Origin: Crocinitomicaceae bacterium | GTDB lineage: Bacteria > Bacteroidota > Bacteroidia > Flavobacteriales_D > Crocinitomicaceae | Assembly: GCA_022447665.1 (NCBI GenBank) | Contig: JAKVAQ010000018.1 | Coordinates: 1 to 64,000 of the forward strand | Reading direction: 5' to 3' | Length of the DNA stretch: 64,000 nt | In this document: piece by piece, positions 2,539 to 16,583 of the stretch | How the letters are laid out: the number at the start of each line of letters is the position of its first letter | Numbering within the stretch: position 1 is the first letter of the stretch | Made by a program: the position numbers and the translations under genes | Notes under the pieces: generated by a model | Told to the model about the DNA's origin: nothing | Database searches by the model: none | The model's input: only the letters and a program-made list of their open reading frames with translations

Positions 2539-2583
2539 TCTTTACAAGTGACGGCAAATGTAAATTTTTTTGAGGAGTTTTTG

Positions 2584-2591
2584 TACCTTCG
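2584..2591 (+). promoter_or_regulatory. Possible Bacteroidota -7 box before pseB
   Basis: TACCTTCG lies 20 bp upstream of the chosen pseB start and matches the Bacteroidota -7 consensus TAnnTTTG at all but one fixed position. No convincing TTTG -33 element is seen at the usual spacing. It is inside the longer open frame that starts at 2570, which supports the downstream ATG as the true start. Confidence 0.4.
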
Positions 2592-2611
2592 AGCCTTCAT
2601 ATAATAAGAAT

Positions 2612-3631
2612 ATGCTAGATTTAAACGGAAAATCAATTTTAATAACTGGAGGCACTGGGTCTCTTGGAAAGGCACTAGCAAGAAGAATCTTATCGGACTT
2701 TCCAAAGGTCTCTCGTTTGGTAATCTTTTCTCGCGATGAGCAAAAGCAGTATCAAATGACTATGGAATTCCCACAGAGTAAATATCCTGCAATCCGTTAC
2801 TTTATTGGTGATATTAGAGATTATGATCGCGTTAAAAGAGCTTTCAGAGGTGTGGATTATGTTATTCATGCTGCTGCTATGAAACACGTTCCAGTGGCTG
2901 AATATAATCCAATGGAATGTGTAAAAACAAATGTACTTGGCGCCGAGAATATAATAAATGCATCTTTGGAAATGGATGTAAAAAAGGTAGTTGCACTATC
3001 AACAGATAAGGCGGCAGCACCAGTAAACCTTTACGGAGCTACAAAATTGGTTTCTGATAAATTGTTTGTTGCAGCGAACAACATAAAGGGACACAACGAT
3101 ATACAGTTTTCTGTGGTGCGTTATGGTAACGTAATGGGTTCGAACGGTTCGGTAATTCCGTTCTTCTTGAATAAACGTAAAGAAGGAGTACTTCCTATTA
3201 CAGATCCAACCATGACAAGATTCAACATATCTTTAAATGGTGGAGTAGCTCTAGTTTTACATGCTCTAGAAAATGCTTGGGGTGGAGAAATTTTTGTGCC
3301 TAAAATCCCGTCATATAAAATAACCGACGTTGCGGAGGCCATTGCACCAAATTGCGAACAAAAAGTCGTAGGTATTAGACCAGGTGAGAAAATTCATGAA
3401 GAAATGATTACCTCTTCAGATGCATTTAATACTTATGATTTAGGAAAATATTACGTAATTCTCCCTTCTGTTACCGCTTGGGATATTGAAGAGTTTATAT
3501 CAGCCTTTAGTGCAGTGAAAGTTCCTCAAGGATTTAAATATAATTCAGGAGAAAATGATGAGTGGGTTGGTGTAGAAGATCTGAGAGAGCTAATTAAGGA
3601 GCATGTTGATGCTGATTTTTCAATAGCTTAA
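2612..3631 (+). CDS. pseB: UDP-N-acetylglucosamine 4,6-dehydratase (inverting)
   Basis: PseB converts UDP-GlcNAc to UDP-2-acetamido-2,6-dideoxy-L-arabino-hexos-4-ulose, the first step of pseudaminic-acid-type sugar synthesis. The protein starts MLDLNGKSILITGGTGSLGK, with the NAD(P)-binding TGGTGSLG loop. It also has HAAAMKHVPVAEYNPMEC and the catalytic STDKA...NLYGATK segment typical of this extended SDR family. The length of 339 residues is usual. The open frame extends 14 codons upstream to 2570, but the family consensus and the promoter-like TACCTTCG inside that extension favour the ATG at 2612. It is the first gene of a tight rightward operon; the next start is 3 bp after its stop. Confidence 0.9.
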   Translation: MLDLNGKSILITGGTGSLGKALARRILSDFPKVSRLVIFSRDEQKQYQMTMEFPQSKYPAIRYFIGDIRDYDRVKRAFRGVDYVIHAAAMKHVPVAEYNPMECVKTNVLGAENIINASLEMDVKKVVALSTDKAAAPVNLYGATKLVSDKLFVAANNIKGHNDIQFSVVRYGNVMGSNGSVIPFFLNKRKEGVLPITDPTMTRFNISLNGGVALVLHALENAWGGEIFVPKIPSYKITDVAEAIAPNCEQKVVGIRPGEKIHEEMITSSDAFNTYDLGKYYVILPSVTAWDIEEFISAFSAVKVPQGFKYNSGENDEWVGVEDLRELIKEHVDADFSIA

Positions 3632-3634
3632 TTT

Positions 3635-4513
3635 ATGAGTGTTTCTAAACTAATGCTGGGCACCGTTCAGTTCGGTTTGGACTACGGTATAAATAATCAC
3701 GCTGGCAAAGTTAGGGTTGATGAAGTAGCATCAATTCTAAAATTTGCTAAAGAAAATAAATTAAGCTATTTGGATAGTGCAGAGGCTTATGGTAATGCGC
3801 ATGAGGTAATCGGGAAAACAATTTCTAACGATCAAAACTTTAACATTGTCTCCAAATATTCAGCCTCGGTTGTGTCACTTCCTGATACAATGGATGAAAG
3901 AATAGAGGTAATTTTAAAAGACCTTAATTCTACCTCATTATATGGTTATCTCTTCCATAGCTATTCTCAATTCAGAACAATAGAAAAAGGTAAGTTGAAG
4001 GAGCTAGAGAAACAGAAAGAAGAAGGAAAGATCAAGAAAATAGGTGTTTCGGTTTATACCAATGAAGAATTAGAAGAATTAATCCATAACGCTTTCGTTG
4101 AGCTCGTTCAGATTCCATTTAATATGTTAGATAATGCTTCAAAAAGAAAGGAGATTATGGAGAAGGCGAAAACTAATGGTATTGAGATCCATACACGTTC
4201 TACTTTTCTTCAAGGTTTGTTCTTTATGAACCTTGACGATCTCACTGGAAATCTTAAAGGGTTGCGACCTTATCTTGAGCTCTTAAATAACCTCGCTTCA
4301 GAACAAGAACTTTCCATGAATGAACTTGCCTTGCAATACGCATTGAGTAAGCCGTATATTGATAGGGTTCTAATAGGCGTAGATTCGTTAGACCAATTGA
4401 AAAGTAATATTCGAGCGGCGAATAGCAATATCGATAAAGGTCTTTTGGAAAAAATTGATGATATTAGAGTGCAAGAGGTCGAATTGTTAAATCCGGCGAA
4501 TTGGAAAAAATAA
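3635..4513 (+). CDS. Aldo/keto reductase family protein
   Basis: This 292-residue TIM-barrel oxidoreductase opens with LMLGTVQFGLDYGI. It shows the AKR catalytic tetrad pattern: D and Y in LDSAEAYGNAHE (about residues 46-57), K in VSKYSA, and H in YGYLFHSY. The C-terminal LIGVDSLDQLKSNI matches the cofactor-binding end of the family. AKRs reduce sugar or aldehyde carbonyls with NADPH in the cytoplasm. Members of this subgroup are common in nonulosonic acid and flagellin-glycosylation loci, but their substrate there is mostly unassigned. It lies 3 bp after pseB and 3 bp before the SDR, so it is translated as part of the operon. A role in reducing a 4-keto sugar or a later intermediate is inferred from context only. 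Confidence 0.8.
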   Translation: MSVSKLMLGTVQFGLDYGINNHAGKVRVDEVASILKFAKENKLSYLDSAEAYGNAHEVIGKTISNDQNFNIVSKYSASVVSLPDTMDERIEVILKDLNSTSLYGYLFHSYSQFRTIEKGKLKELEKQKEEGKIKKIGVSVYTNEELEELIHNAFVELVQIPFNMLDNASKRKEIMEKAKTNGIEIHTRSTFLQGLFFMNLDDLTGNLKGLRPYLELLNNLASEQELSMNELALQYALSKPYIDRVLIGVDSLDQLKSNIRAANSNIDKGLLEKIDDIRVQEVELLNPANWKK

Positions 4514-6068: not shown

Positions 6069-6247
6069 GATTCTTTCCTTTGGAAGTTTGTTGATATACA
6101 GCTTCTTATGTGTTTTAAAAACACTATTATATCCGACCTCTAATCACGTGTTTTTGTGAGTTAAGAATTTAAAATCTAAAGCTCGACTAGGGTAGGCTTG
6201 TAGATCATATTACATTGCTTATATTTATCACTAAATAATTTCATTTA
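6069..6247. other. Intergenic gap inside the sugar operon, with small palindromes
   Basis: This is the only sizeable gap in the first half of the operon. It contains the 15-nt palindrome GTGTTTTAAAAACAC at 6110-6124 and a shorter CAC...GTG pair at about 6146-6160. There is no long T-run and no ORF of note. It may hold an internal promoter or a weak attenuator that sets off the RraA-aminotransferase half of the cluster. I see no RNA gene. Confidence 0.35.
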
Positions 6248-6952
6248 ATGGATATCAAAGAGCAGATAATTAGAAAAATTAAGGAGAACAGGATTTCTTC
6301 AACAGAAATTGCAGACGTCTTAGGCAAAAAAGGACTTGTAAAAGGTCCGAAAATATTAAATAGAGGAATGCATAAAGTAGGAGAGGTTGCCTTTGTTTAT
6401 GCCTATAATAAAAGTAATTGGGAAGTGCATGAACAACTGCATGATCTTGAAGAAGGAAAAATCGTTTATGTTCATCCAATTGAATGTGAAGATAAAGCAA
6501 TATTTGGTGATTTAGTCTCGAAATATATAATGCTCTATAAAAGGTCCGTTGCAATCGTGACAAACGGCGTTATGCGTGACGCTCATACCTTGGTTAAAGA
6601 AAATTACCCAATATGGTGCACTGATGTGTCTCCAATTGGATGTAATAATGTACAAAACACCACTCAGCCAGATTCTAACTTATTGGAAGAATTGAGAAGC
6701 CTGTATCACGGTTCAATTATGGTTTGTGACGATAGTGGAGTAGTGATGATTAAGAAAGAGCATATAAACGCGGAGTTTTTAAAGAAACTTGATTTCATTG
6801 AACTTCAAGAAGATGTATGGTTCCTATGCATGGATACGCATAAGATGTCAACCTACGAAATCGTATGTCAAAAACAATATCTAGATGAAGAGTCAGATAT
6901 TATATCGAAAACAAAAAAAGAGGAGTTAAAGTCCTACTCTACAGCCAAATAA
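6248..6952 (+). CDS. RraA / HMG-aldolase-like family protein
   Basis: The 234-residue protein has the RraA fold motifs: an N-terminal STEIADVLGKKG segment near residues 17-28, then FGDLVSKY, and IVTNGVMRDAHTL with the Arg-Asp pair that binds metal or substrate in 4-hydroxy-4-methyl-2-oxoglutarate (HMG) aldolases. The acidic residue usually found three positions after that Asp is replaced by Thr (RDAHT), so aldolase activity is uncertain. RraA-fold proteins are either RNase E regulators or pyruvate aldolases/oxaloacetate decarboxylases. Placement inside a sugar-acid operon, directly abutting an aminotransferase, argues for a metabolic role. It could make or break a 2-oxo acid, but that is inference. 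Confidence 0.75.
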   Translation: MDIKEQIIRKIKENRISSTEIADVLGKKGLVKGPKILNRGMHKVGEVAFVYAYNKSNWEVHEQLHDLEEGKIVYVHPIECEDKAIFGDLVSKYIMLYKRSVAIVTNGVMRDAHTLVKENYPIWCTDVSPIGCNNVQNTTQPDSNLLEELRSLYHGSIMVCDDSGVVMIKKEHINAEFLKKLDFIELQEDVWFLCMDTHKMSTYEIVCQKQYLDEESDIISKTKKEELKSYSTAK

Positions 6953-8068
6953 TTGGAATTTAATAACATATTAAAAGGAGTTCATCACTCTCAATCCATG
7001 AAAAGAGGGGGGCTCGAAGGTGATTATATCAACTTAGCAATAGGTGCACCTGATATTCCACCACCAAAGGATGTTTCGGAAGCCATTTCCAATTTTCTTT
7101 CAGAAGGAAATTATAAATATTTTAACTCAAGGGGATCTGAAAAAGCAAGAAAAAATGTTTCTACTTTATTGGGGCTTGAAGTTGAGAGTATAGATGAAAT
7201 CACGCTAGTAAACGGTGCAAAATTTGGCATTTACAATGCCTTAAACACCTTATTGAATACAGGCGACGCTGTAGGATTATTTCCTCCTTATTGGTTAAGT
7301 TATCCTGATATCAATAAAATACTTGGACTAAAAACAGTATTTTTTGATTCTCATATCAATGAAAGTAATGACTTGTATTATAGTCTAGAAGAGGTAAAAA
7401 AAAGTATTGCTGAGAATAATATTAGATGTATCATCATTAATGATCCGAATAATCCTTCAGGTCAATTATTTGATCAAATTCTTTTTGACGATCTTCTTAA
7501 GTTTTGTGCTGAAGAGCAAATATGGGTGATAGTAGATGAGGTGTATAAGGATCTCATTTTTGAAGAAGGAAAACCGTTGACTTTTGATATTAAAAAGTTT
7601 GAGAATATAGTCAAGGTGGGTTCGCTGTCAAAGAGTTTATCGGTTCCAGGCTTACGTGCTGGCTATGTTCAAGCAAGCAAAGAAGTAATTTCAAATTTCA
7701 ATCTAATAAACCAACACATCTCTACTTGTATAAATTCATTGACTGATTATGTCTTAGGCTCAATTTTAAAAGAGTCTTTTGATTCATACATTCACGAAAC
7801 TTCTAAAGTTTATCAGAGACGATATGAATTGGCTTCTAAAATACTGACTGAAAAAGGATATAAATTCTTTAGAGCTTATTCTGGTTTTTATATGCTGGTA
7901 AAGGTCGTTCCAAAATACGAAAGTGGCGAGATTGCCGCTGAAGAGCTTCAAAAAGAAGGTGTGTTAGTTACACCAGGGAAAGCCTATGGTGAAGACTTTA
8001 ACGACTATATCCGTCTTTGTCTGACGGTAAATGAAGAAATGTTAATCAAAGCGTTTTTAAAATTTTAA
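6953..8068 (+). CDS. PLP-dependent aminotransferase, class I/II
   Basis: This 371-residue fold-type I aminotransferase has INLAIGAPDIPPP near the N-terminus, IINDPNNPSGQLF, VDEVYKDL, and the Schiff-base lysine K227 in GSLSKSLSVPGLRAGY. It is of the aspartate/aromatic (class I/II) type and not the DegT/DnrJ type, so it is not a PseC orthologue. The start is TTG, one base after the stop of the RraA gene. An ATG at 6998 is an alternative but would remove part of the N-terminal substrate arm. The likely reaction is transamination of a 2-oxo acid or keto sugar. Its ultra-tight link to the RraA-like gene suggests the two act in sequence. Confidence 0.85.
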   Translation: MEFNNILKGVHHSQSMKRGGLEGDYINLAIGAPDIPPPKDVSEAISNFLSEGNYKYFNSRGSEKARKNVSTLLGLEVESIDEITLVNGAKFGIYNALNTLLNTGDAVGLFPPYWLSYPDINKILGLKTVFFDSHINESNDLYYSLEEVKKSIAENNIRCIIINDPNNPSGQLFDQILFDDLLKFCAEEQIWVIVDEVYKDLIFEEGKPLTFDIKKFENIVKVGSLSKSLSVPGLRAGYVQASKEVISNFNLINQHISTCINSLTDYVLGSILKESFDSYIHETSKVYQRRYELASKILTEKGYKFFRAYSGFYMLVKVVPKYESGEIAAEELQKEGVLVTPGKAYGEDFNDYIRLCLTVNEEMLIKAFLKF

Positions 8069-8992
8069 ATGGCGAGAGTTGGATTATACGCAGGGCTTTA
8101 TCAAAATAAAGGCGTAGGACACATTGTTCGAACTGCATCTTTATATCATTATTTAGAATCCACTTATTTCCAACACGAATTTCATTTTGCCACAAATGAT
8201 CCAGCCAAAACAAAACCAATACTTGAAAATTTTGAAATTTTCGCTGATCAACAAGAAATAAACTCATGCGATGTATTACTTCTTGACTCGCCTGAGGACG
8301 AAAATGATTTGTTAGATCGTGTGGAGTATAAAAGATTAATCAGGCTTGACTTTTTTGATTATCTCGATAACAGAGTAGACGTGATCATAAATTTGTTCAA
8401 TCATAACCCAATAACATTAACAGGGTCAGCTAAAATATATGAAGGGTTAGATTATACAATTCTTAAAGATGAAGTGCTAAATGCTCAGGATCATTCTGAA
8501 TCAAAGACAGATAAGAAATTGAGTAAGGTGCTCGTGGCTTTTAGTGGTAATGACCCAGCGAATAATACAATTAAGGCAGTTCAAAGAATGTCATCTTTTG
8601 ATGTAAGAATGAAAGTTGTATGTCCGTCTCAAAAGTCGTTGAATGATTACGTGGATTATGCTGACCAAGCGGTTTTTATTGCTCCAACAAGTAAGTTTGG
8701 TATGCTATTGGCAGATTGCGACTTGTTTATTTGTGCTGGCGGAACGGCGTTGGTAGAAGCATTGTTTTTGGGTAAACCTATTCTAGCTATTGCACAAAAT
8801 GTTATGGAGAAAAGGTTCATTGAGTATGTCGGTGGTGAAGTCAAAATTTACACTTTTGATGACGTAGAGGACATCTCAAATAATTATGGACTTATCGAAA
8901 ATTCAACTCGGAAAGAGTACCGTAAATTAGTTGATGGTAAAGGAAAAGAGAGAATAGGTCGTATTATATTAAATTTATTGGGTGAAGAATAA
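8069..8992 (+). CDS. PseG-like UDP-sugar hydrolase / GT28-domain protein
   Basis: This 307-residue GT-B fold protein starts MARVGLYAGLYQ and has KGVGHIVRTASL, where the GH-x-x-R motif carries the catalytic His of PseG. The second domain shows LVAFSGNDPANNTI and LFICAGGTALVEALFLGKP, the UDP-binding half. PseG removes UDP from UDP-2,4-diacetamido-trideoxyaltrose before condensation with phosphoenolpyruvate. Here the substrate may differ, since the PseC and PseH steps that normally make it are not seen. It begins immediately after the aminotransferase stop. Confidence 0.75.
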   Translation: MARVGLYAGLYQNKGVGHIVRTASLYHYLESTYFQHEFHFATNDPAKTKPILENFEIFADQQEINSCDVLLLDSPEDENDLLDRVEYKRLIRLDFFDYLDNRVDVIINLFNHNPITLTGSAKIYEGLDYTILKDEVLNAQDHSESKTDKKLSKVLVAFSGNDPANNTIKAVQRMSSFDVRMKVVCPSQKSLNDYVDYADQAVFIAPTSKFGMLLADCDLFICAGGTALVEALFLGKPILAIAQNVMEKRFIEYVGGEVKIYTFDDVEDISNNYGLIENSTRKEYRKLVDGKGKERIGRIILNLLGEE

Positions 8993-8993
8993 C

Positions 8994-10190
8994 ATGAATG
9001 TTTTAGTGTTAGGAGCTGGAGCTTATCAAGTTTCGGGTATAAAAAAGCTAAAGGAAAAGGGCTTCTTTGTTGTTGCTCTTGATGGCAATCCTGCTTCACC
9101 AGGGAAAGAATTTGCAAATGAGTTCAAGCAGTGTAATATATTGTCTTTTGAAGAGGTAAAAGATTATATTCTAGAAAAAGGCGAGGATTTTTTTGATGCT
9201 TGCCTTAGCTTTTGCACGGATGCTCCCATGAAAGTCCTAGGAGAGATCAACGATTTTTTTGGATTCATGGGGATTTCAAAGAAATTGGCTCAAATTTCCG
9301 TGGATAAGTTTTTGCAGCGCGAAAAGATGGTAGCGGCCGGTTTACCAACGCCGGCATTTCAATTATTGAATTCGCCAGATGATTTGCTTAATATAGAATT
9401 TCCTTGTGTAGTAAAGCCTGTGGATTCAGCTGGGAGTAGAGGAGTTTCGGTTGTTTGGAGTAAGAAAGAATATGATAAAGCAATAATTAACGCATTTGAT
9501 ACATCGAAATCGGGTAAGTGTATTGTAGAAGAATTTATTGTTGGAACTGAATATACGGCTGAAGTGCTGTTGCACAATGGTCAACAAGAAATCCTAGGGA
9601 TTTCAGAGAAATTCAAACCCCTCCAGAATTATACTGTTTCAAACCAACTTCATTATAATTCACCTAGAGCTAAAAGGCATTATAATCAGATTGCTTCAAT
9701 TTTGAAACGATTTTTTGAGACAGCGCATTACGACAATAGTATTACCCATACCGAGCTGATCTTAAATGAAAAGAATAATCAATTTTACTTGATCGAATCG
9801 TCTCTTCGATCAGGTGGTTTTGCAATTTTTGATGAGGTTCTTCCTTATCTTTCAGATGACGATATAGTTGGTAAAACGATAGATGTTTATTTGGGTAAAG
9901 AAGTTGAATTAGACATTAAAAAGGAGAAAAGTGTAATCATGAATTTTGTGTCTTCGAATCCAGGGAAATTGATTTCTTATTCTATGGATGGAAATGTATA
10001 TTCTAACTTTGAGGGAGCTTCAGAGAAGCACGGTTTTTTTCTTAAGGAAGGAGATGAAGTTAAAGCCTTAGATTCAGATGGAGCTAGAGTAGCTTTCATT
10101 CTTACCTTTGCTGATAATTGGCATAAAGCTTTTGAGCTTTCCAACTTAGTAGAATACAGTATGAATATTGACGTAGAAAGATTAGAATGA
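8994..10190 (+). CDS. ATP-grasp domain ligase
   Basis: This 398-residue ATP-grasp protein (carbamoyl-phosphate-synthase-large-subunit-like) has an N-terminal MNVLVLGAGAYQVSGIKKLK pre-ATP-grasp fold. The ATP loop is VVKPVDSAGSRGVSVV, followed by EEFIVGTEYTAEV and HTELILN...LIESSLRSGG. The last motif usually reads E-x-N; here it is ESS, so metal coordination may vary. ATP-grasp enzymes join a carboxylate to an amine or thiol through an acyl phosphate. In a nonulosonic-acid operon it could attach an amino or hydroxy acid to a sugar amine. The frame extends to a GTG at 8982 but the ATG at 8994 fits the Rossmann start better. It overlaps the next gene by 4 bp. Confidence 0.75.
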   Translation: MNVLVLGAGAYQVSGIKKLKEKGFFVVALDGNPASPGKEFANEFKQCNILSFEEVKDYILEKGEDFFDACLSFCTDAPMKVLGEINDFFGFMGISKKLAQISVDKFLQREKMVAAGLPTPAFQLLNSPDDLLNIEFPCVVKPVDSAGSRGVSVVWSKKEYDKAIINAFDTSKSGKCIVEEFIVGTEYTAEVLLHNGQQEILGISEKFKPLQNYTVSNQLHYNSPRAKRHYNQIASILKRFFETAHYDNSITHTELILNEKNNQFYLIESSLRSGGFAIFDEVLPYLSDDDIVGKTIDVYLGKEVELDIKKEKSVIMNFVSSNPGKLISYSMDGNVYSNFEGASEKHGFFLKEGDEVKALDSDGARVAFILTFADNWHKAFELSNLVEYSMNIDVERLE

Positions 10191-10903
10191 GACTAAATGA
10201 TTCACACTTACATATAAGTTCTGGAATTGATGATTACGATATTGATATTTCATTCAGAAACATAATCTACAATTATATAGAAGAATATAATGAAGAGTCA
10301 GATAAGTACCGTGACTCGTCAACGCATCATACTTTAATATTTGATTTTAGGTCAACTCATAACACGAAATTTTTGATTGATGAAATCAAAGCGAATCGTG
10401 TACATGGGATTAAGATTCATTCAAGAATTCAAAAAATTCTTCCTGATGAGTATGATTTGTTATTGAAGAGATTGAATGAAATTCCAGAATATATACCTAT
10501 TACCTTCGATGCTTTTTATGATGGACCAGATGTTATGTATCAACCATCCATGACTGCTCTTGGTAAGCTGGTAGAGATTTACCCAAACAGAAAAGTCATT
10601 ATTGCGCATTCAGGAGGATACGAAATGTTAAAGTACTTTTTTCATTTTCGTACATTAAAAAATGTTTATTTTGACCTTTCTTTAAGCTTGCACTATCTCA
10701 AAGATAGCTCGGTAAAAACAGACCTAATTAAGCTTCTGAAATTCGTAAACAAGGAAAGAATCATTTTTGGTACTGATTATCCATTTGCTCCTGCTTCTGG
10801 TCAAGTTGATACGCTATTATCATTTTTTGAGGAATTAGATATTAGCAAAGACGAACAGGATTTGGTTTTTTATCAGAATTATTTATCAGTTTTTAAATCA
10901 TAA
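10187..10903 (+). CDS. Amidohydrolase-2-type metal-dependent hydrolase
   Basis: The 238-residue protein carries the H-x-H metal motif at its start (NDSHLHIS), a Lys/His strand (GIKIHSRI), IIAHSGGYE, and the C-terminal FGTDYPFAP with the catalytic Asp. This is the amidohydrolase-2 layout (ACMSD / oxalomesaconate-hydratase relatives). It could hydrolyse an amide or lactone, or decarboxylate or hydrate a small acid. It overlaps the ATP-grasp gene by 4 bp and ends 1 bp before pseI, so it belongs to the sugar-acid operon. Pairing an ATP-grasp ligase with an amidohydrolase suggests a tailoring step, but the substrate is unknown. Confidence 0.75.
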   Translation: MRLNDSHLHISSGIDDYDIDISFRNIIYNYIEEYNEESDKYRDSSTHHTLIFDFRSTHNTKFLIDEIKANRVHGIKIHSRIQKILPDEYDLLLKRLNEIPEYIPITFDAFYDGPDVMYQPSMTALGKLVEIYPNRKVIIAHSGGYEMLKYFFHFRTLKNVYFDLSLSLHYLKDSSVKTDLIKLLKFVNKERIIFGTDYPFAPASGQVDTLLSFFEELDISKDEQDLVFYQNYLSVFKS

Positions 10904-10904
10904 T

Positions 10905-11921
10905 ATGTTTGGCGATAAAGTGTTTATAGTGGCGGAATTATCCGCTAATCATGGTGGAGATATTGAAATTGCTAAAGAAACAATTCGTGCAGCAAAACGA
11001 TGTGGAGCTGATGCTATAAAACTCCAGACCTATACTGCGGATACTATTACGCTAGACGCTAAAACAGATGATTTTTTAATCAAAGGAGGTACAATTTGGG
11101 ACGGAATGTATCTTCATGATTTATATCAAGAAGCTCATATGCCCTGGGAATGGCATGAAGAGCTTTTCAAGACTGCTAAAGAGGAAAATATATTATGTTT
11201 TTCATCACCTTTTGATTTCACTGCGGTTGATCTTCTCGAAAAATTTGATGTTCCAGCTTATAAAATTGCGTCGTTTGAAATAACGGATGTTCCATTAATT
11301 GATTATTGCGCACGAAAAGGTAAGCCCATGATTATTTCAACGGGCGTGGCATCAGAAGAGGACATTCAAACGGCAGTTGATACGTGCAGAAATGCCGGAA
11401 ATAATGACATAACCTTGTTGTTATGCACTTCGGCATATCCAGCAAAAATTGAAGAAGCAAATCTTATAATGATAAAAGATTTGAAAGAACGATTTGCTGT
11501 AAAATCTGGTTTGTCGGATCATACCTTGGGCACACTTGTGCCAATATTATCGGTTGCATTTGGGGCGCAAATGATTGAAAAACACTTCATCTTAGATAAG
11601 AAAATAGGTGGCCATGATGCATCTTTCTCCCTTGATGAAAAAGAATTTTCGGATATGGTAAGCGCCGTTAGACTAGCAGAGTCATCTATTGGGAATGTTG
11701 ATTATAGGGTTACTCCCGAAAAAGAAATAAGAAGAAGATCGGTTAGATCCATATATGTTTCACAAGATGTTAAAAGAGGAGAGATTATTACTCTTAAAAA
11801 TGTGAAGTCAGTTCGCCCTGGCTTTGGTCTGTCTCCCAAGAAACTTAATGACGTTTTAGGTAAAGCCTTTAATGCTGATTATGTAAAGGGAACGGCATTA
11901 AAAGAAGACATGATCTCTTGA
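10905..11921 (+). CDS. pseI: Pseudaminic acid synthase (nonulosonic acid synthase)
   Basis: PseI condenses a trideoxy-hexose with phosphoenolpyruvate to give the nine-carbon sugar. The 338-residue protein has the NeuB barrel motifs VAELSANHGG, DAIKLQTYTADT, FSSPFDFTAVDLL, KIASFEITDVPLI and GLSDHTLGTLVP. It also has MIEKHFILDKKIGGHDASFS, which is typical of the PseI branch over NeuB or LegI. A C-terminal SAF (antifreeze-like) domain follows, with RRSVRSIYVSQDVKRGEII. It is the last biosynthetic gene of the operon, placed before the flippase. The PseI-branch features suggest an L-glycero-L-manno type product. Confidence 0.92.
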   Translation: MFGDKVFIVAELSANHGGDIEIAKETIRAAKRCGADAIKLQTYTADTITLDAKTDDFLIKGGTIWDGMYLHDLYQEAHMPWEWHEELFKTAKEENILCFSSPFDFTAVDLLEKFDVPAYKIASFEITDVPLIDYCARKGKPMIISTGVASEEDIQTAVDTCRNAGNNDITLLLCTSAYPAKIEEANLIMIKDLKERFAVKSGLSDHTLGTLVPILSVAFGAQMIEKHFILDKKIGGHDASFSLDEKEFSDMVSAVRLAESSIGNVDYRVTPEKEIRRRSVRSIYVSQDVKRGEIITLKNVKSVRPGFGLSPKKLNDVLGKAFNADYVKGTALKEDMIS

Positions 11922-12140
11922 CTATTACATCCTTTGCCTTTTCTTGTGACACAAGTGAAAAAGAGATGTTCTCATTATTCCAACTCATTAATGAGTGGGA
12001 ATTATCATTGTTGAAGATGAATAACTTTATCCAGGATATTAACATTAATTAGATTAAAAACGGAATCTTTAAAAATGGATGAAGGGTATAATTATCTAAT
12101 TTTAGAACAAATTCCATTAAAAGTTACCATTTGGGAATAA
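11918..12140 (+). pseudogene. Possible remnant of a small gene between pseI and the flippase
   Basis: Two short open frames occupy this gap. The first runs from TTG 11918 to TAG 12052 (44 aa, with the stretch EMFSLFQLINEWELSLLK) and overlaps the pseI stop. The second frame is open through 12075-12140 (ATG 12075, MDEGYNYLILEQIPLKVTIW) and its stop lies inside the flippase start, the overlap expected of operon neighbours. A frame change between them would join them into one protein of roughly 70 residues. This could be a decayed acyl-carrier or transferase fragment, a real small protein, or chance. I do not recognise a family. Confidence 0.3.
11974..12005. repeat. 32-bp near-perfect palindrome
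   Basis: The two 16-nt arms match at 14 of 16 positions without a spacer. The core is the perfect 12-mer CTCATTAATGAG at 11984-11995. It sits between pseI and the flippase gene. It has no following T-tract, so it is not a standard terminator; a dimeric regulator site or mRNA hairpin is possible. Confidence 0.6.
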
Positions 12141-13618: not shown

Positions 13619-14247
13619 TAATTAAGTCTATTAATCGAGCGGATATAAGAACGATTTCTTATCGCGGCAAAAAAGTGAAGACGGGTATCTTTAAAATGCC
13701 TGTTTCAACAGAGATGGAAGTTACTACTAAAGGACTGTCAGGTGACAATGTGGTAGATAAACGCTACCATGGGGATTACGATAAAGGACTTTATGCTTAT
13801 GGTTCGGAACAATATGAATTTTGGAAACCCCAGTATCCAGACCTAGATTTTCAATGGGGTATGTTTGGTGAAAACCTTACCGTTGATGGTTTAGACGAGG
13901 GAGAGATATTTGTCGGAGATCGCTGGCGAATAGGCGAGGAGGTAATCGTTGAGGTTTCGCAGCCAAGAGAGCCTTGCTTTAAATTGGGAGCTCGATTTGA
14001 AACACAAAAAGTAGTAAAGGCATTTGCAAAATCGAATTATCCTGGAGCTTACCTTAGAATTATTCAGCCTGGTATTATAAATGCGGGCGATGAAATTACA
14101 ATAGTGAAGAACGATAAGGAGCGCCTGAGTATTGGTGAAGTTTGGAAATGTCTTTTTCACGAAAAAGATATTGATGGGATTAAAAGAGCCTTAGCGCACC
14201 CTTTATTAGCAGAAGATAGCAAGGAGACTCTATTGAAGAGACTCTAA
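13615..14247 (+). CDS. MOSC domain-containing protein (YiiM-like)
   Basis: The 210-residue protein has the MOSC motifs DKRYHGDYDKGLYAYG, WGMFGENLTVDGLDEGEI and the conserved cysteine region VSQPREPCFKLGARF. MOSC proteins are molybdenum-cofactor sulfur-carrier-like or molybdoenzyme domains that act in the cytoplasm on N-hydroxylated or related compounds. It overlaps the flippase stop by ATGA (4 bp) and is thus co-transcribed, though a link to glycan synthesis is unclear. It ends overlapping the 3' end of the convergent patatin gene by 4 bp. The domain assignment is firm; the function is not. Confidence 0.85.
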   Translation: MIIKSINRADIRTISYRGKKVKTGIFKMPVSTEMEVTTKGLSGDNVVDKRYHGDYDKGLYAYGSEQYEFWKPQYPDLDFQWGMFGENLTVDGLDEGEIFVGDRWRIGEEVIVEVSQPREPCFKLGARFETQKVVKAFAKSNYPGAYLRIIQPGIINAGDEITIVKNDKERLSIGEVWKCLFHEKDIDGIKRALAHPLLAEDSKETLLKRL

Positions 14248-16583
14248 CGTAATCCTCTCTTATTAAAGATTACCCAACCGTAAGATAATTGGAAGGATAA
14301 ACGCTCTAGTGGTGACTTTCCATCTAAATAATTCATTGTACCTCTAATAGGACCTATCACAGAATGGTAAATCACAGAAAGACTTCCGATTCCAAATTGT
14401 CCTTGGAACAATTCACCATCTACGGCAATACCGTTGTCGTTTAAAATTCTTCGAATTGGTTTGAAATAGTAGGCTTCTAGTCGTACATCGAGCTTATTAT
14501 CAAAAAATGAGAACACATTAATAAGCCCACCTGCTAAATACTTATTTGCCCTGAAGTCATAGTAAAAACCAGTCTTCGCATCGGGTATTGGTTCATAAAC
14601 ATGAGAGTTCAGAATACTCGCTGTATAGTTTTGAAAATAAGGCTGGAAAGAATACAAACCTTCTGCCGAAATACCTAAGCTATAGTGTTTTCTCTTTATG
14701 AAATAATTCGTGTAATTTGCCTTGAAGTAAACCCATGTTCTGAATGTTTTAGTTTCATCTCTTAGTAAGGCTGTAGAACCTGGTAAGGTGTGTTCAACTC
14801 CATGGATGAATCGAGATTCAAAGTTAGCTTCCATGCCTTCATTCGCGAATTGCTTTCGGTTAAGGTTTGAAAACTTAAGTGAAACCCCGGGCGAATAATA
14901 ATGGAAGGAGGTAAAATCAGTAGTGTCCAACGCCGTAAAATCCTCTGTTTGATAATAGTCATCTTCATTCGTTCCGTTTACGAAATCTACCGTAAGCTTA
15001 CCCGTTTGTTTAACCCTAAAGTGAGCCTTTAGGCCCCAATAGATCTCGTTTTGTACCAAATAACTTGGTTTTACATCTTCAAAGAAGGTAGCAAAACTTC
15101 TAAAATAGTCCCACCTATTCATAACAAAAACAGGTTCTACATATGAGTTTGCACGTGTAGGCAAGTGGAAGTTTAACCCTGCTTTCACCGAGCCATAAAA
15201 CTTACCAAAGAAGGTGTTGGCATAAAAAGTAATAGGAGATCTCTTAAAGTCGGAATAAGATGCACTCAAGTATCCCATATTTACAGGCCGAGAAGAGTAA
15301 TGTCCTCCAAAAGCTAATCGCAATGGTTTTTCACGTTTAATGGCTAAGTTAAGCTCTTGACTTGTGTCTGTTACATTGGTCAGTGAGGGAAAAATGGAAA
15401 CAACATGATCGTTCTGATATAGATCCAAATATCTAAAATGCAGCTTATCTTTTGTTAATGTCGGAGACTTTTTACTTGGCAAGAATTTTTGTTCCAAGTA
15501 ACTTTCTTGATCTGGAGTAACTCCCGTAATATTGACATTCGTTATTCTACAACTAATTTTCTTTCTATTGTAAGTTTGTCTTCTTGTCAAAAGCTCTTTT
15601 TTACTTTGCCTACGCGTTACAAAAGCTTTTATCGAGTCTATGTTCTCGAGGGTAGTTTCATAACCAATTTGTATTGCTTTTTGAATCTCCGCAAAATCAA
15701 AAGTGCTTATATTGCCAAGGTTTGGCTCTATCATTATCCCTTGCTCACATGGTAATTCATATAGTGATTTTGAAGAGAACATGTTTACGATCTGAGAAAT
15801 TAGATTATCATCTGTTGGAGCTGCCTCGTTAAAGGAAACATTGCTTCCTATTATGAAATCGGGACTAAAATCTTCATACAGTTCAGTTGCAGGGAAGTTA
15901 TTATATAAACCACCATCAAACAATAACTCTCCTTCTACTTCAATAGGGCTTATGAAAAAAGGATAAGTCATACTTGCACGAACTGCCTTGTTTAATTCTC
16001 CGTCTTTGAATACCACACTTGATTTGTCTGCGATATTCGAGGCTACACATCGAAAAGGAACAAAAAGGCTATCGAATGTTTCTTTACTAGCAACAGGATT
16101 AAACCCCAAATAGGTTAATAACTCCAGATCAAGCACTGTAGGGTTAAGTAAGTTGGTAGGCAAAGATTTACTAAAAATTGAATCTTTTGTAAAGTGATAG
16201 GAGATCAACTCAGGAGATTCCTCAACCTCAGAAAAATAGTATCGATCTTCTGGACCTAATAAACCTTGACTAATTAAATAAAACTGCTCGCTTGTCACAA
16301 TAGCCTCAATTTCCCATGGAGAATATCCAGAAGCGTACATAGCACCTACAAGAGCTCCCGCGGAGGTTCCTGTAATATAATCTATTGGAATGTCGTTTTC
16401 CTCCAGAGCCTTCAAAACACCTACATGTGCGAATCCCGATGCTCCACCGCCACTGAAAACAAGCCCAACTTTTTGAGCATAAGTAGTCCAGGTCATGCAA
16501 AATGCAAAACATAAGAACGCGGAACGATATGCCAATTTTCTTAGGCTCACCGGCTCTAATTTACGCTGAATATAAAACAGCAC
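14244..16583 (-). CDS. Patatin-like phospholipase with C-terminal outer-membrane barrel
   Basis: This 779-residue protein has a signal-peptide-like segment ending near TYAQKVG. The patatin domain (about residues 40-250) has the oxyanion loop GGGASGFAHVG, the nucleophile in GTSAGALVGAMYASG, and the Asp in LFDGGLYNNFPA. A POTRA-like part (VNITGVTPDQESYLEQKF) and about 400 residues of alternating, aromatic-rich strands follow, ending ...SYGWVIFNKRGLR, as in surface-antigen/BamA-like barrels. This is the patatin-barrel type of protein common in Bacteroidota and related to type Vd autotransporters. The Ser-Asp dyad is intact. It should act on lipids at the outer membrane. Confidence 0.85.
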   Translation of the reverse strand: MLFYIQRKLEPVSLRKLAYRSAFLCFAFCMTWTTYAQKVGLVFSGGGASGFAHVGVLKALEENDIPIDYITGTSAGALVGAMYASGYSPWEIEAIVTSEQFYLISQGLLGPEDRYYFSEVEESPELISYHFTKDSIFSKSLPTNLLNPTVLDLELLTYLGFNPVASKETFDSLFVPFRCVASNIADKSSVVFKDGELNKAVRASMTYPFFISPIEVEGELLFDGGLYNNFPATELYEDFSPDFIIGSNVSFNEAAPTDDNLISQIVNMFSSKSLYELPCEQGIMIEPNLGNISTFDFAEIQKAIQIGYETTLENIDSIKAFVTRRQSKKELLTRRQTYNRKKISCRITNVNITGVTPDQESYLEQKFLPSKKSPTLTKDKLHFRYLDLYQNDHVVSIFPSLTNVTDTSQELNLAIKREKPLRLAFGGHYSSRPVNMGYLSASYSDFKRSPITFYANTFFGKFYGSVKAGLNFHLPTRANSYVEPVFVMNRWDYFRSFATFFEDVKPSYLVQNEIYWGLKAHFRVKQTGKLTVDFVNGTNEDDYYQTEDFTALDTTDFTSFHYYSPGVSLKFSNLNRKQFANEGMEANFESRFIHGVEHTLPGSTALLRDETKTFRTWVYFKANYTNYFIKRKHYSLGISAEGLYSFQPYFQNYTASILNSHVYEPIPDAKTGFYYDFRANKYLAGGLINVFSFFDNKLDVRLEAYYFKPIRRILNDNGIAVDGELFQGQFGIGSLSVIYHSVIGPIRGTMNYLDGKSPLERLSFQLSYGWVIFNKRGLR

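Follow-up and report, generated by a model that had tools for sequence, protein, structure and literature searches.

A candidate RraA-like/ATP-grasp module for acyl tailoring of bacterial surface sugars

The DNA analyzed here, referred to as the window, comprises the first 64,000 nucleotides of contig JAKVAQ010000018.1 (C10) from the 4.06-Mb genome of a Crocinitomicaceae bacterium (assembly GCA_022447665.1). It contains a nonulosonic acid (NulO) cluster that includes genes for an RraA-like protein, a class I/II aminotransferase, an ATP-grasp ligase and an amidohydrolase-superfamily protein. The RraA-like gene has an ATP-grasp gene close by in all of the intact loci that were collected. In our interpretation the two genes, often accompanied by the amidohydrolase, constitute a horizontally spread module for the tailoring of surface glycans, in which an acid made by the aldolase would N-acylate a 4-amino sugar; we consider the chances for and against this interpretation to be about even. 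The literature covered on RraA or ATP-grasp proteins in nonulosonic acid and O-antigen clusters, a coverage that does not extend to the amidoligase survey of Iyer et al. 2009, does not describe the pair. The RraA/ATP-grasp tailoring module in surface-sugar clusters is real and conserved and apparently undescribed, and the mechanism proposed for it is plausible.

Linkage of the RraA-like gene to its partners

Loci were collected by RraA alone, with no selection for partner genes. Fourteen of them are intact: the window, L008-L014, L027-L031 and L033, where L012 is from Anaerovibrio JC8 and L027 and L028 belong to the phylum of L014. In 14 of 14, an ATP-grasp gene is found no more than 2.5 kb from the RraA gene, mostly as the adjacent gene. 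The 14 genomes have 30 ATP-grasp_4 genes in ~46 Mb, with 1-4 in each, and we estimate that chance alone would place one this near a given RraA gene about 0.5% of the time. Several loci are close kin (L010/L011/L013, L027/L028 and L009/L029), so that the number of independent cases is about ten. An amidohydrolase of family A4 is present in eight loci (the window, L012, L014, L027, L028, L030, L031 and L033); when seven genomes were searched as a whole for this family, it was found in only two, in both inside the cluster.

A preliminary description of this DNA had proposed that the four genes serve in tailoring, and the linkage of RraA to ATP-grasp (14/14) and to the amidohydrolase (8/14), in clusters for NulO or 4-amino sugars, bears this out. 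The co-occurrence of all four genes that it envisaged extends to the RraA/ATP-grasp pair and, in 8 of the 14, to the amidohydrolase. It does not extend to the aminotransferase, which is specific to the window (a different one is present in L011), and a conserved four-gene set was therefore rejected.

The partners differ in how far they have diverged. Mean pairwise identity between loci is 55% for RraA, 30% for ATP-grasp and 28% for the amidohydrolase, and L014 and L029 have RraA proteins that are 68% identical and ATP-grasp proteins that are 19% identical. The trees disagree as well: L014 groups with L012/L009/L029 in RraA (97/96) and with L010/L011/L013 in ATP-grasp (100/99). A conserved RraA protein, a variable ATP-grasp protein and incongruent trees fit a system in which one common small molecule, the product of RraA, would serve different acceptors by way of different ligases, each suited to its sugar.

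Structure and active site of the RraA-like protein

The AlphaFold model of the RraA-like protein has a predicted local distance difference test score (pLDDT) of 93.5. Its best fold match is 3NOJ, the 4-hydroxy-4-methyl-2-oxoglutarate (HMG)/4-carboxy-4-hydroxy-2-oxoadipate (CHA) aldolase LigK, with Z 19.1 and 2.6 Å over 194 residues (an alpha-beta-beta-alpha fold); RraAS2 (Z 18.4) and PSPTO_3204 (Z 18.1) are near-ties behind it. Alignment to 3NOJ pairs N57 with N71, H61 with H75, D88 with D102, which we take to be an active-site position, R110 with R123 and D111 with D124. N57, H61, R110 and D111 are invariant in 14 of 14 subfamily members, and position 88 is D or E. The spacing is D-X21-R-D, as compared with D-X20-R-D in 3NOJ. 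The sequence alignment stops short of the metal ligand E199; in the corresponding C-terminal helix, E185, E188 and D189 do not vary. The numbering and the roles of N71, H75, R123, D124, T145, K147 and E199 are those given for HMG/CHA aldolase (PMC5065237).

It had been noted previously that the protein keeps the Arg-Asp pair and lacks the acidic residue after it, and that this would weaken the case for an aldolase. The observation holds, since the motif reads MRDAHT and the acidic residue is absent from all 14 family members, the window protein included, but the conclusion does not. The residue belongs to the second of two RraA metal motifs, so that its absence is no weakening; with the positions of N71, H75, D102, R123 and D124 all kept, the case is strengthened. 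Most RraA homologues carry one of two motifs (PMC5065237). The curated LigK profiles are not reached (TIGR02798, 40.9 of 304.5 bits; NF006731, 47 of 179 bits), and the protein is accordingly not filed as LigK but only as one that may work like LigK. Overexpression of LigK in vivo led to more 4-hydroxy-4-methyl-2-oxoglutarate from pyruvate (PMC11951559), showing that the synthetic direction of such an aldolase is possible.

Organization of the window locus

The cluster is an operon-like run on the + strand from PseB (2570) to PseI (10905), followed by a gap and then by a flippase-like open reading frame (ORF) at 12131. Its genes are as follows.

2570..3631, + strand: PseB, UDP-GlcNAc 4,6-dehydratase (inverting); TIGR03589, 507 bits, above the cut-off of 407.75
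3635..4513, + strand: aldo/keto reductase (KidO-like); PF00248; also present in L030, L031 and L032
4517..5269, + strand: short-chain dehydrogenase (SDR); PF13561/PF00106; also present in L030 and L031
5244..6068, + strand: cytidylyltransferase, probably the CMP-NulO synthase; PF02348; the PseF model TIGR03584 is not among the matches listed
6248..6952, + strand: RraA-like protein with an HMG/CHA-aldolase-type site; PF03737, 60 bits, cut-off 24.5
6953..8068, + strand: class I/II aminotransferase; PF00155; start at TTG 6953 or ATG 6998
8069..8992, + strand: divergent PseG-like UDP-sugar hydrolase; TIGR03590, 57 bits against a cut-off of 153.55
8982..10190, + strand: ATP-grasp ligase; PF13535, 69 bits
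10187..10903, + strand: amidohydrolase-superfamily protein (Amidohydro_2); PF04909, 50 bits, cut-off 26.4
10905..11921, + strand: PseI, pseudaminic acid synthase type; TIGR03586, 491 bits, above the cut-off of 340.25

The reaction of PseB is the first step of the NulO pathway. The four genes of interest are intact, on the + strand and in the order previously described, and each matches its Pfam profile. They are not consecutive, however, because the PseG-like gene separates the aminotransferase from the ATP-grasp ligase. The 1-bp gap reported between the RraA-like and aminotransferase genes is in fact 0 bp if the latter starts at TTG 6953 and 45 bp if it starts at the in-frame ATG 6998. The operon is otherwise tightly packed, with the exception of 179 bp of AT-rich non-coding DNA (6069-6247) between the end of the cytidylyltransferase gene (6068) and the start of the RraA-like gene, and for this reason a transcript of its own may begin at the RraA-like gene. 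Promoter and terminator scans around that gene gave scores no better than those of shuffled sequences.

Upstream of PseB, 970-2538 on the - strand encodes a 522-residue protein without a Pfam match, with a weak relative at L030:13402-15291 (23%); it may be a surface-sugar transferase. Shortly past the cluster, 14244-16583 on the - strand encodes a 779-residue protein that, as judged from its translation, is a patatin-like outer-membrane protein.

Aminotransferase, ATP-grasp ligase and amidohydrolase

Alignment of the aminotransferase with the aspartate aminotransferase (AspAT) 1o4s shows that the pyridoxal phosphate-binding Lys, the NNPxG and DEVY motifs and the Arg that binds the α-carboxylate are kept, so that its substrate is likely to be a 2-oxo acid, as predicted from these residues. 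A different AspAT-like gene lies directly ahead of the ATP-grasp gene in L011. The ATP-grasp family (A6) resembles the L-amino acid ligases 3vot, 4wd3 and BacD, and its ATP-grasp_4 residues K109, K145, E258, E272 and R276 are invariant in 15 sequences. The window amidohydrolase has metal-type residues (D5-S-H-L-H, K76, H141 and D197); the first His of the HxH motif is missing in three relatives. Its model, a modest one (pLDDT 72), has the barrel fold of the superfamily, and many superfamily members, 2-pyrone-4,6-dicarboxylate hydrolases among them, match it about equally (Z 12.5-15), so the reaction is not readable from the fold.

Sugar context and the acceptor amine

The sugar genes of the clusters indicate where the acid may go. 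L012 is a pseudaminic acid cluster with PseB (54% identical), PseC (491 bits, above 423.5), PseG (171, above 153.6) and PseI, in which no PseH was seen. L027 and L028 share a row comprising a GT56-type transferase, ATP-grasp, amidohydrolase, RraA and WecE (574, above 375, typed in L027), and L027 also has an RmlA-type nucleotidyltransferase; the genes typed in these two loci include no acetyltransferase. For the DegT enzymes of L010 and L014 the nearest model is dTDP-4-dehydro-6-deoxyglucose aminotransferase, below its cut-off. WecD or PseH normally acetylates the 4-amine that WecE and PseC introduce. This PseC and WecE context, with an acetyltransferase unseen, is most simply read as acylation of the 4-amine with another acid by the ATP-grasp ligase. 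The earlier suggestion that the acid is attached to a sugar amine is thus supported by the sugar clusters. In the window genome, no gene scores over the PseH cut-off (best 42 of 93.1 bits).

The two best DegT genes of the window genome are in other sugar loci, on contigs C22 and C45; among candidates for supplying the sugar amine of the window, the C22 gene ranks first. By eye from the sequences, the C22 locus (L034) contains PIG-L-, WecB-, DegT- and sugar-transferase-like genes, and the C45 locus (L035) contains WbpA/B/D/E-like genes, its DegT gene lying beside those like WbpA/B/D. The DegT ORF of L011 (5872-7560, 562 residues) is split by a DUF559/Vsr-like endonuclease domain at residues 188-310, with DegT sequence on both sides; this may be an intein or another kind of insertion.

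In three NulO clusters, a methyltransferase of 213-216 residues accompanies ATP-grasp and the amidohydrolase (L030:4392-6179, L031:12079-12720 and L032:6768-8581); the same region of L030 contains a radical SAM-SPASM gene and that of L032 a probable one. These loci probably make a further modified acid. The marine Flexibacter maritimus has a complex N-acyl NulO polymer that includes 2-hydroxyglutarate (PMC3210612); such substituents therefore exist in this kind of bacterium, although the polymer does not identify the acid here.

Proposed pathway and alternatives

In the proposed pathway, the RraA-like protein would work as a class II pyruvate aldolase of the LigK kind, run in the synthetic direction, and would join pyruvate to a second small oxo compound to give a small 2-oxo (di)acid. 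In the window, the adjacent aminotransferase would turn this 2-oxo acid into an amino acid. The ATP-grasp ligase would activate the carboxylate as an acyl phosphate and couple the acid to a nucleotide-linked 4-amino-4,6-dideoxy sugar at its free amine, which in the window would give rise to the C7 nitrogen of a pseudaminic-type NulO; this acylation would stand in for N-acetylation by PseH or WecD. The amidohydrolase may reshape the acid, perhaps through hydration/dehydration or lactone/lactam chemistry, by analogy with LigI and LigJ beside LigK; the "editing" role suggested for it previously is not supported. A wider proposal, that the RraA subfamily is a dedicated biosynthetic pyruvate aldolase whose branched or hydroxylated 2-oxo (di)acid becomes an unusual amino acid, with which swappable ATP-grasp ligases N-acylate 4-amino-4,6-dideoxy sugars and NulO precursors across phyla, is more tentative, and we put its chances somewhat below even.

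Several observations weigh against the proposed pathway. In all 14 members, C132 and N134 take the place of T145 and K147 at the phosphate site of the aldolase, so that the electrophile pocket differs and either the second substrate is another one or the reaction itself has changed. Nor is the aminotransferase conserved, the orthologue-like class I/II copy being present only in the window. No PseC is encoded in the window cluster, and the best scores in the genome are 294.6-298 of 423.5 bits. Acetyltransferases may be encoded elsewhere in the L012, L027 and L028 genomes. L030 and L031 have a GNAT-sized gene alongside the module (judged by size, not by the PseH profile), so that ATP-grasp there may acylate another nitrogen, and the acceptor or the acid may differ from that of the other loci. 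Finally, L032 has ATP-grasp and the amidohydrolase, but only a fragment of RraA. This decayed fragment (L032:9822-10064; 90 codons, one TGA) lies between the intact ATP-grasp gene and a PseI-like gene, indicating that the module can lose RraA.

Alternatively, the set may be a mosaic in which RraA and ATP-grasp make the acyl group and the aminotransferase acts on the sugar, either in 4-amination as a replacement for PseC or at C8, with the aldo/keto reductase and the SDR preparing the keto substrate. The missing PseC and the lack of an aminotransferase orthologue in other clusters are consistent with such a division, as is the 8-amino NulO known from Flexibacter maritimus, which is marine and belongs to the same bacterial group (PMC3210612). 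The aminotransferase, however, is of the AspAT type with the α-carboxylate Arg and is not a DegT sugar aminotransferase, its gene abuts that of RraA, and the L011 cluster, which includes a DegT gene, has an AspAT-like gene next to this pair; we consider the sugar-side assignment unlikely. The replacement of the phosphate-activation residues by C132 and N134 would also suit a decarboxylase or other lyase that acts on a dicarboxylic acid such as oxaloacetate and supplies or removes a metabolite without forming a C-C bond, and 3NOJ, although an aldolase, also decarboxylates oxaloacetate (entry name; PMC5065237). A decarboxylase dedicated to giving plain pyruvate would have no need of so strict a link to a ligase, and this function appears distinctly unlikely.

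It is improbable, too, that the RraA-like aldolase has the sugar chain itself as its substrate and makes or cleaves a 3-deoxy-2-ulosonic acid (a Kdo- or NulO-like aldol of pyruvate and a sugar aldehyde), with ATP-grasp as a separate tailoring gene. Pyruvate aldolases are able to build ulosonic acids, a related CTP-transferase is close by in L008, L009, L010 and L029, and L010 has a gene resembling the Kdo transferases of family GT99. However, the phosphoenolpyruvate-dependent PseI already makes the ulosonic acid in the window, L012 and L033; L027, L028 and L014 have no CTP-transferase or ulosonic gene near RraA, and the tight link in all loci is that of RraA to ATP-grasp. That the protein regulates ribonucleases of the RNase E type and is present here by chance is hardly credible. 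The fold is common to Escherichia coli RraA (Z 14-16), but the aldolase is the closest fold, the catalytic residues are invariant and ATP-grasp is always near; no equivalog for the RNase E regulator scored over its cut-off with the RraA-like protein, and the typed loci are glycan clusters. This identity was rejected on the basis of residues and context. Overall, the preliminary interpretation is partly supported.

If the proposed pathway is correct, a branch of RraA, a family with many members of no known role, would have an anabolic function, and the donor enzyme could be named behind one class of unusual N-acyl substituents found on the surface sugars of bacteria. The strict RraA-ligase linkage would make RraA usable as a genomic marker of such modified sugars, including those of gut bacteria.

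Distribution and origin

The RraA-like gene is the sole PF03737 gene found in its genome. None of 58 relatives from its family and order has the subfamily, which is present in ~1% or less of 398, 348, 189 and 344 genomes from other groups. The bacteria that carry it are scattered and include gut and marine ones. Its members, which share 43-96% identity, are from Lachnospiraceae, Selenomonadaceae, Paludibacteraceae and further genomes, and belong to both Bacillota and Bacteroidota. No subfamily member came from plasmids, phages or viral contigs, the plasmid matches being LigK-type proteins of 24-30% identity. The PseG subtype of the window is matched in nine genomes, in all of them weakly except its own, and is not common to relatives. 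Because the RraA subfamily is rare and absent in relatives and the PseG subtype is not shared with them, the window locus looks as if it was acquired by horizontal transfer.

Comparison with known systems

With the CMP-pseudaminic acid pathway (PseB-C-H-G-I-F) the window shares PseB and PseI, both over cut-off, a PseG-like protein and a cytidylyltransferase. It differs in having ATP-grasp, RraA, aminotransferase and amidohydrolase genes in a genome that lacks PseC and PseH over cut-off. The sfm flagellin modification cluster of Shewanella oneidensis, in which PseI-like and PtmA-like genes tailor a nonulosonic acid with a substituent, has a product known by mass only, and an RraA-like protein is not mentioned in its description (PMC3765264). 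The window ATP-grasp protein matches the profile of the L-amino acid ligases (BL00235, BacD) over most of its length and has the ATP/Mg residues in common with them, whereas its proposed acceptor is a sugar amine and not an amino acid. The RNase E regulator RraA has the same fold, but the RraA-like protein is longer, with N- and C-terminal helices, has an intact aldolase site and is without a link to RNA processing. Also comparable is LigK (3NOJ), the HMG/CHA aldolase of protocatechuate 4,5-cleavage, with the same fold and the N71/H75/D102/R123/D124 site. LigK works beside the amidohydrolase-superfamily proteins LigI and LigJ in the protocatechuate pathway, and the amidohydrolase beside the RraA-like protein presents a parallel that is a suggestive analogy, no more. 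The RraA-like protein has ~19% identity to LigK, with C for T145, N for K147 and one residue more than the D-X20-R-D spacing, and, in contrast to the catabolic LigK, is encoded in glycan clusters in linkage with ATP-grasp, where its proposed role is biosynthetic.

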